NCBI GenBank assembly: GCA_026225415.1
Contig: JAMFSS010000009.1
Span: 62,001-126,000 of the forward strand
DNA length: 64,000 nucleotides
Origin: Alphaproteobacteria bacterium
GTDB lineage: Bacteria > Pseudomonadota > Alphaproteobacteria > UBA9219
Reading direction: 5' to 3'
The notes under the pieces are model-generated. The model had not been told where the DNA came from. It saw only the letters and a program-made list of their open reading frames with translations, and searched no databases. A program made the position numbers and the translations under genes. Shown here piece by piece: positions 40,868-41,887 of this stretch; the first letter of the stretch is position 1; each line of letters begins with the position of its first letter.

Positions 40868-41263
40868 TTATTTTTCTTCGTCATCCGGTCTTTTGGGCTT
40901 CTGCAAATCCTTGGCCACAGCAGGATCATGCAAAAGCACATCGATGCGATGCGCAATCGCAAAAGTTTCATCGGCGACGAAACGTAATTTTGGCACATGG
41001 CGCAACAACACCGCCTTACCCACCGCATGGCGATAGAACCCACTGCTGTCATTCATCGCGCGAACGGTTTCTTTTAACTTGAGCCCACCCAATGGCATGA
41101 CATAGGCCGTGGCGTTTTTCAGATCGGGGCTGACGGATACTTCGGTGACTGTGACTGTTGGCGGATTGAGCCCTGTGGGCCACGGCACATCGCCACGCAT
41201 CAACACCGCCGCCAGCGCGTGACGAATTTCTTCGCCCACCCTTAATTGTCTTTGAGTCCGCAT
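40868..41263 (-). CDS. rbfA: Ribosome-binding factor A
   Basis: Cold-adaptation factor for 30S subunit maturation. The 131-residue protein has RQLRVGEEIRHALAAVL, VTVTEVSVSPDLKNATAYVMPLGG and LRHVPKLRFVADETFAIAHRIDVLL, the family KH-type core. Start ATG 41263 with GGTGG before it; an in-frame GTG upstream adds three residues. Its usual partners infB and truB are not here. The convergent EAL gene ends nine bases away. Confidence 0.95.
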   Translation of the reverse strand: MRTQRQLRVGEEIRHALAAVLMRGDVPWPTGLNPPTVTVTEVSVSPDLKNATAYVMPLGGLKLKETVRAMNDSSGFYRHAVGKAVLLRHVPKLRFVADETFAIAHRIDVLLHDPAVAKDLQKPKRPDDEEK

Positions 41264-41325
41264 ATCAACCACCGAAAAATCTGTACGGAAGCAGGATACT
41301 CAATTTTCATGACAAACGCTATATT

Positions 41326-41471
41326 TAGGGTATGTCCTCAATTGAATAAGTTTGCGGTGAAAATTGTGATTTTTCTTGATTTTGTGCGCAGCGTACGCCT
41401 TTGTACGTGAGCAACAAAATCAAGAAAAAGCGCAATTTGCGCCCAAAATCATTCAATTGGGGCATGCCCTA
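41326..41471. repeat. 146-bp imperfect inverted-repeat element (MITE-like)
   Basis: The whole segment is one long imperfect palindrome. The ends TAGGGTATGTCC and GGCATGCCCTA are near-exact reverse complements, then CAATTGAAT pairs with ATTCAATTG. The inner arms, TTTTTCTTGATTTTGT (41370-41385) and ACAAAATCAAGAAAAA (41414-41429), are perfect complements around a centre of about 28 nt that contains GCGTACGC. It carries no frame. It sits between rbfA and the terminator of the exported Pro-rich gene. No target-site duplication is obvious. Confidence 0.65.
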
Positions 41472-41474
41472 GAT

Positions 41475-41512
41475 AAAAAACCGCCTGCCTCTTGGTTACA
41501 GAGAGGCAGGCG
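41475..41512 (-). terminator. Rho-independent terminator of the exported Pro-rich gene
   Basis: Perfect 11-bp G/C-rich stem (41482-41492 with 41502-41512) and, on the minus strand, a following run of six T (41475-41480). Classic intrinsic terminator. Confidence 0.9.
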
Positions 41513-41536
41513 TAGTTTCTCACCAGAACGGCTGTA

Positions 41537-41887
41537 TTAGCGGATATGGACGCCCAGATTGACTCCAACAGGCGCCGGTTGAACATAAGTCGGCGCGGGC
41601 TGCACATAAACGGTTTGTGGAGGCGCTTGTTCGACAATAACAGGTGCGGGTTGCGGTTGTGCCACAACATAGCCGGGTTGCGCGACCACAACGCCGGGCT
41701 GTGTCACGATATAGCCGGGAGCCGCCACATAATAATGCATGCGTGGATCCCAAACCCAACCGCGCGGCGCATGGCCACGGTGATAATAATGCCCATCATA
41801 CCAACGTGCCTGCGCAGGCGTTGCAATCGACAGACCAACCAAAGCGATGAAGGCGAGCGCAAAGATTCTTTGTAAAGTGGTTTTCAT
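41537..41887 (-). CDS. Exported Pro/Val/Gln-rich protein
   Basis: A 116-residue secreted protein. Signal peptide KTTLQRIFALAFIALVGLSIATPAQA is followed by an aromatic and His-rich segment (RWYDGHYYHRGHAPRGWVW) and then a repetitive region: PGYIVTQ, PGVVVAQ, PGYVVAQ heptads, followed by Pro/Gln/Val runs with TYVQPAPV. The mature N-terminus resembles small RcnB/YXWGXW-type envelope proteins only in composition. Start ATG 41887 with AGGAGA six bases away is secure. It ends at a strong terminator. Function unknown; envelope location inferred. It follows mreB on the same strand at 114 bp. Confidence 0.8.
   Translation of the reverse strand: MKTTLQRIFALAFIALVGLSIATPAQARWYDGHYYHRGHAPRGWVWDPRMHYYVAAPGYIVTQPGVVVAQPGYVVAQPQPAPVIVEQAPPQTVYVQPAPTYVQPAPVGVNLGVHIR

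Follow-up and report, generated by a model that had tools for sequence, protein, structure and literature searches.

The 146-bp hairpin upstream of rbfA in the window, i.e. the 64,000-nucleotide stretch of alphaproteobacterial DNA that we analysed, is probably a non-autonomous MITE that is mobilised by IS5-family enzymes and contains an ERIC-type hairpin core, and ERIC would belong to the same superfamily. A MITE was among the readings offered by the first-pass annotation of this DNA, and it agrees with the dispersed copies, the non-conserved position, the empty sites with TA duplication in relatives and the IS5-family-like arms that are described below.

According to the mechanism that we propose, the outer ~20-24 bp of each arm would be the terminal inverted repeats of an IS5-family insertion sequence (IS), and an IS5-family transposase supplied in trans would act on the arm ends. 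The element would insert at TA and duplicate it, and by analogy with its relatives the window copy would have moved likewise. The interior is a conserved imperfect hairpin, composed of the core and two boxes, with its fold kept by compensatory change and one strand favoured. Its core may act as a folded single strand, either RNA or ssDNA. One and the same core is combined with several arm types and, in a more divergent version, probably lies inside ERIC of enterobacteria, which would unite them in one superfamily.

Structure and setting of the element

A near-complete hairpin of 146 nt occupies positions 41326-41471, with the ends TAGGGTATGTCCTCAATTGAATAA and TCATTCAATTGGGGCATGCCCTA. Folded as RNA from end to end, it reached -78.8 kcal/mol, compared with -33.3 +/- 3.5 kcal/mol for 200 dinucleotide shuffles (z = -13.0), and none of these 200 shuffles folded equally well. 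The element had been described as palindromic over its whole length. The end-to-end fold upholds this description, but the palindrome is imperfect, with bulges and mismatches conserved at positions common to several copies. Its near-identical ends and its two perfect 16-nt inner arms were confirmed when the sequence was read again. We took as plus strand the strand bearing the GGTGAAAATTG box and the GCGCAGCGTAC core, and the TA-to-TA extent was set after the empty sites of relatives. The parts of the element are listed in Table 1, in which R1, R2 and R3 are covariance models.

Table 1. Parts of the 146-bp element, in positions of the window.
Feature	Position	Strand	Basis
Whole element, 146 bp including TA at both ends	41326..41471	+	Fold; matches of R1, R2 and R3
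TA, presumed left copy of target duplication (target T-TA-G)	41326..41327	.	Analogy with two Sphingobium filled/empty pairs
Putative left terminal inverted repeat, type B	41326..41349	+	3/20 mismatches to left end of IS5-family element L337, in register from TA
Conserved 5' box GCGGTGAAAATTGTGA	41354..41369	+	Near-invariant columns of alignment A2
Variable inner stem, 5' side (inner arm TTTTTCTTGATTTTGT)	41370..41385	+	Letters vary among copies, pairing kept
Core hairpin GCGCAGCGTAC-loop-GTACGTGAGCA, conserved irregularities	41386..41413	+	Core pattern in at least 118 stretches of named genomes and in 35 viral contigs
Variable inner stem, 3' side (inner arm ACAAAATCAAGAAAAA)	41414..41429	+	Letters vary among copies, pairing kept
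Conserved 3' box GCGCAATTTGCGCCC	41430..41444	+	Near-invariant columns of alignment A2
Putative right terminal inverted repeat, type B, ending in TA (41470-41471)	41449..41471	+	Sequence reading; arm comparison

The element lies 53 bases upstream of the start of rbfA, which is encoded on the minus strand at 40868-41272 (PF02033, E = 2.8e-23). On its other side there is a terminator-like hairpin at 41482-41512, in agreement with the earlier placement between a terminator and the rbfA start. Past this hairpin follow a small protein that matches PXPV weakly and then mreB. No promoter-like site was found in 41200-41650.

Copies in the genome and wider distribution

Four further places in the element's own genome (G000, 2.02 Mb) matched its inner 93 bases by BLAST with 70-83% identity, and had different outer arms. 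Model R1 was built from 24 copies, 10 of which came from G000 and therefore match by construction. It gave 16 distinct places in this genome at E < 1e-4 and one at 0.012, with the window element as match G000:C1:103331-103468. Hence, the genome does hold the further copies for which the first-pass annotation had proposed a search. The element carries no gene, and the 20 loci that were viewed in G000 and its congener G005 sit between or at the ends of open reading frames, several of them overlapping short doubtful ones.

R1 matched 26 of the 114 genomes of relatives and 22 of the 289 genomes in an even draw of the class. This distribution is patchy, as for mobile DNA. Hosts of the core pattern included, among the matches listed, Mesorhizobium, Phyllobacterium, Brucella, Devosia, Sphingobium and Novosphingobium, along with others, and beyond the Alphaproteobacteria Pseudomonas, Vibrio, Providencia, Paenibacillus and Oceanobacillus. 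The viral contigs in Table 1 are counted irrespective of whether they are true phages, and a Mesorhizobium copy had no match in the phage collection. In copies fetched by the pattern the core is fixed by the search itself, so that their sharing of the core is by construction. The flanks paired around the core in 15 non-window copies that were folded singly, less neatly in L090 and L111.

Conserved fold and strand polarity

Compensatory change was studied in alignment A2, which excludes three copies with other boxes (L027, L030, L031) and the duplicate loci L006-L009. Changes on both sides occurred in 34 of the 44 pairs, and 93.9% of the 1054 cells were paired, compared with at most 46% after sliding the partner. 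In total, 187 cells had both-side changes versus 51 in shuffles, and none of 500 shuffles scored as high on any measure of covariation. Mismatches and bulges within the hairpin were fixed in position among the copies of A2. A further alignment, A3, comprised 17 of the 22 extracted copies (L079, L089, L208, L145 and L076 were excluded), and A4 is A3 minus two Providencia copies and two copies from one alphaproteobacterial MAG.

Of 189 clusters, 166 had the better fold on the given strand rather than on its complement, and this number was 167 once a symmetric centre had been substituted; these clusters, from 231 unique segments matching a near-exact core pattern, are mutually related and do not represent independent trials. 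Wobble cells in A2 numbered 87 G-T versus 17 A-C on the given strand, and 22 versus 37 in the complement's own fold. This wobble polarity was absent from A3. Where the flanking genes ran parallel (seven G000 loci, read by hand), three copies were in sense and four in antisense orientation. Since the copies are not co-oriented with their flanking genes, we see no clear sign of a role in host mRNAs, and the strand polarity seems to be a property of the element.

Compensatory change and the preference for one strand fit a folded single strand, either RNA or ssDNA. The structured RNA that had been suggested at first finds partial support in these two features, but the orientation of the copies does not follow that of neighbouring genes. 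Rfam gave nothing at gathering score in 12 loci, and the matches in 14 further loci were limited to rRNA, tRNA, StyR-44 and one case of Acido-Lenti-1, all away from the element; sub-threshold hits were weak microRNA-precursor matches, far below gathering. One table entry in a small-RNA study of Thalassospira (PMC6413936) is a read with two matches to the core, and these are on the complement of the better-folding strand.

Probable relationship to ERIC

We took the layout of the element to be reminiscent of ERIC. A 38-nt ERIC core matched 5375 of 5426 E. coli genomes. No ERIC sequence went into model R2, whose 17 copies included two from Providencia and two from one MAG labelled Alphaproteobacteria; its best match in G000 was the window element (E = 2.5e-6). 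Over 36.8 kb, R2 ranked seven ERIC copies at places 1-7 of 20 matches, and it aligned to one ERIC copy in register through the core and both boxes. In 45 kb of K-12, ERIC was again the top match, but with an E-value of 0.17.

Because R2 included Providencia and alphaproteobacterial rows, the comparison was repeated with model R3, whose 13 copies contain no alphaproteobacterial or enterobacterial sequences (sources were Pseudomonas, two Bacilli, two deltaproteobacterial MAGs, Desulfovibrio, and Bacteroidetes and Acidobacteriota MAGs). R3 found the window element at 41352-41448 with 46.5 bits (E = 5.2e-10 in 64 kb). The 12 further G000 loci were all recovered as the top 12 of 35 matches, five of them only at E 0.1-0.8. 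Seven ERIC copies ranked 1-6 and 8 of 24, at 11.4-20.7 bits and a best E-value of 0.0026. A chance match of R3 within the window reached 16.6 bits; single ERIC scores are therefore weak, and it is the joint ranking of the ERIC copies that counts. Hence, a structured core with boxes that is likely common to both groups was found by a model trained on neither.

ERIC copies were unmatched on the opposite strand by either R2 or R3 at E-values up to 10. Moreover, the given strand folded better in all seven ERIC copies, the same polarity as in the element. ERIC and the window element are likely akin, although their resemblance might be convergent. The element is not ERIC itself: the letters of core and arms differ (GCTTAC/GTAAGT in ERIC versus GCGTAC/GTACGT in the element), and R1, which represents the window's wider group and contains alphaproteobacteria only, did not detect ERIC (best score 10.1 bits, E = 1.2). 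No IS with the ends of ERIC was found; a lone ERIC end on an E. coli plasmid (L347) has no IS annotated there. In our literature search, which reached few subscription papers, no title dealt with alphaproteobacterial relatives of ERIC or linked ERIC-type repeats to IS5 ends.

Long palindromes can self-correct, one arm templating the other. If the inner hairpin were debris within an IS5-type MITE, such quasi-palindrome correction could account for the covariation, and convergence of imperfect palindromes for the likeness to ERIC. Both the failure of R1 to detect ERIC and the lack of wobble polarity in A3 would be in line with this explanation. However, correction would erase the bulges and mismatches, yet these are conserved at fixed places. 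The opposite wobble ratios of the two strands in A2, the in-register alignment of R2 with ERIC and the lack of opposite-strand ERIC matches also speak against it, and we consider debris an unlikely origin of the hairpin.

Insertion sites

On Sphingobium plasmids, two copies occur in some strains but not in others. The first site reads CTTTAAAGC when empty (L291) and CTTTTAGG...CCTAAAGC when filled (L289), and the second site reads GGCGGCTAGGCCG when empty (L294) and GGCGGCTAAGGG...CCCTAGGCCG when filled (L290). Both pairs fit an insertion that duplicates TA. The target duplications and empty sites that the first-pass annotation had named as a check on mobility hence exist in relatives. These results imply that the family moves, and its mobility is well supported.

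For the copy in the window itself, the 10 genomes of the genus yielded no empty site that could be aligned on both flanks. These genomes have different neighbourhoods on the far side, and the TA duplication of this copy is therefore presumed. Across copies, TA was located within 3 nt of both fold-defined ends in only 23 of 147, although such fold-defined ends are noisy.

An element upstream of rbfA was present in two of the 10 congeneric genomes (G000 and G005), with differing outer arms, and in none of the other eight in the stretch inspected. A single copy conserved in place among relatives would have pointed to a local structure, as the first-pass annotation remarked; the genome instead contains about 16 dispersed copies, and the rbfA position is not conserved among congeners. 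It is improbable that the element is a regulatory structure of rbfA, such as a leader RNA or terminator, maintained in place. The short distance to the rbfA start and the presence of the G005 element upstream of the same gene would suit such a role, but the absence from eight congeners, the different outer arms in G005, the location of the copies beside unrelated genes and their mixed orientation (see above) do not.

Outer arms and IS5-family ends

A search of Sphingobium SYK-6 for one arm type, with up to 3 mismatches allowed, yielded 60 matches, many of which form pairs ~146 bp apart. One inverted pair of these arms encloses 852 bp (L297) with an IS5-family transposase in two frames, which has the domains NF033580 (IS5 family), Pfam DUF4096 and DDE_Tnp_1. 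The ends of L297 matched 8 of 233 hairpin copies at up to 4/20 mismatches, versus none of 699 shuffled. A search of relatives for DUF4096, which occurred in 19 of 59 genomes, yielded the 857-bp IS5-family element L337. Its end TAGGGCGTGTCATCAATTGA resembles the window arm from the TA onward (Table 1), and its ends matched 3 of 233 hairpin copies at up to 4/20 mismatches, the window's included, versus none of 699 shuffled. Likewise, the ends of L353 from Rhizobium matched 7 of 238 copies at up to 5 mismatches, versus none of 714 shuffled.

In total, 6 of the 18 IS loci compared (L297, L337, L346, L324, L353 and Kozakia L355) had more arm matches than shuffled controls. The ends of the other 12 IS5-type loci matched no hairpin arm; among these 12, no inverted ends were found for L352, and the inferred ends of L351 and L354 are doubtful. 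One of the two end comparisons, the one that included L337, L346 and L324, took 7 of the 30 DUF4096 loci, those with usable inverted ends, together with L297; the remaining DUF4096 loci had no clear end pair or were repeats of the same element.

Terminal inverted repeats are thus shared with autonomous elements, namely L337 for the arm type of the window and L297, L353 and others for relatives. Comparison supports the outer arms as probable IS5-family ends, with the ends of different IS on different copies. The link of the element to IS5 is supported by sequence comparison rather than experiment. The IS concerned may belong to the IS427 subgroup of ISfinder. Arms vary among copies yet agree within a copy, which IS5-family ends would explain, since one enzyme must see both ends. 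The same IS5-type ends also flank other interiors in SYK-6, in short inserts or fragments of which some have a different palindrome (L304, L305, L311, L312). Inserts with the same ends and other interiors suggest that the enzyme probably has no need of the core, i.e. that the transposase would be independent of it.

The genome G000 had no match to PF13340 (IS5-type)/DUF4096, PF13358 or PF01797, so that no resident mobiliser was found in it. For type A arms, the commonest in G000, no IS was found. A candidate in G001 (L329:90-175), with type A ends ~360 bases from a PF13340/DUF4096 match, proved to be two ends back to back around TAA and was not accepted as an IS. PF13358 (DDE_3), which we take to be an IS630-type domain, was rejected as mobiliser, as it had no match in G000 or most copy-rich genomes, though it was present in G042 and G005.

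Movement through a folded single-stranded intermediate, either RNA that is copied back or ssDNA, with the IS5-like ends borrowed only as landing signals, would use the strand polarity and conserved structure described above, and the core-derived small-RNA reads in a table of the Thalassospira study (PMC6413936) would be compatible with it. Nevertheless, clean TA duplications and matching IS5 ends suffice for the insertions, no partner enzyme was identified among the transposase families searched, and we attach very little probability to this route.

Least probable of all is that a RAYT (Y1 tyrosine) transposase moves the element as a REP/BIME-type hairpin: the element is an imperfect, strand-polarised intergenic hairpin as REPs are (PMC3733652), but PF01797 had no matches in G000 and the copy-rich genomes G007, G017, G022, G024, G028, G029, G031 and G042, and six in G009, which has no copies. 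The REP-like hairpin of the first-pass annotation was judged by a palindrome of 20-40 bp, a GTAG tag and a RAYT gene, and is set aside, since the element measures 146 bp and PF01797 is absent from G000 and does not track the copies. Furthermore, TA duplication, as observed in relatives, is to our knowledge not expected of Y1 enzymes.

Comparison with known repeats

ERIC (also IRU or RU-1) is a 127-bp repeat of enterobacteria and vibrios. A 2007 review (PMC2229807) describes it as intergenic, with a long imperfect hairpin and TA ends with target duplication, and recounts orientation-dependent effects of Yersinia ERIC on mRNA stability. The element is similar to ERIC in its core and box layout, strand polarity, intergenic imperfect hairpin and TA ends. 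With IS5-family IS (NF033580; DUF4096 and DDE_Tnp_1) and the MITEs derived from their ends, it has in common terminal inverted repeats in register from TA. In contrast to those MITEs, it has no shortened transposase gene inside; what fills the interior is a conserved hairpin that is combined with several unrelated types of ends.

In the same review, the movement of bacterial repeats such as ERIC is an open question, and a match to IS ends is named as known only for RUP. This repeat of pneumococcus (IS630-Spn1) resembles the element in being a short repeat with IS-matching ends and TA insertion, but it belongs with the IS630 family rather than IS5, and PF13358 had no match in G000. REP, CGTC-REP, YPAL/RU-2, CIR and Bru-RS are palindromic intergenic bacterial repeats like the element. 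REP and CGTC repeats are described as 20-40 bp, compared with 146 bp for the element, and YPAL as lacking TA ends (PMC2229807). Bru-RS may be a member of the element's family.

We see an even chance that the core is an ancient hairpin module, spread across Alphaproteobacteria, Pseudomonas, Vibrio and Bacilli and also present in ERIC, which survives by exchanging its ends, so that different IS5-family transposases carry it in turn, with the core being kept by selection on one folded strand, either RNA or ssDNA, for an advantage of its own. If the core is shared with ERIC and the ends of the superfamily are IS5-family ends, ERIC-type mobility becomes testable with a named enzyme family. Moreover, the conserved, strand-polarised core offers a well-defined target for functional assays in several phyla.

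Tandem and variant copies

Paenibacillus montaniterrae has five tandem copies, ~185 bp apart, in one intergenic stretch (L104:2380-3290), and tandem arrays at other loci too. One G000 copy (L012; G000:C6:8955-9093) has its central hairpin in the opposite orientation to the boxes, as though the palindrome had been flipped at its tip; R3 matched this copy on the other strand (L219), in keeping with its inverted centre. Five other G000 copies (L004, L005, L218, L226, L227) have the core variant GTAT...ATACGCG instead of GCGTAC...GTACGTGAG, and these gave the weakest R3 scores. Finally, several contigs of G177 gave five core-only matches of 44 bp with equal score, four of them no more than ~80 bases from the start of a contig, perhaps the mark of a multi-copy repeat that breaks the assembly.
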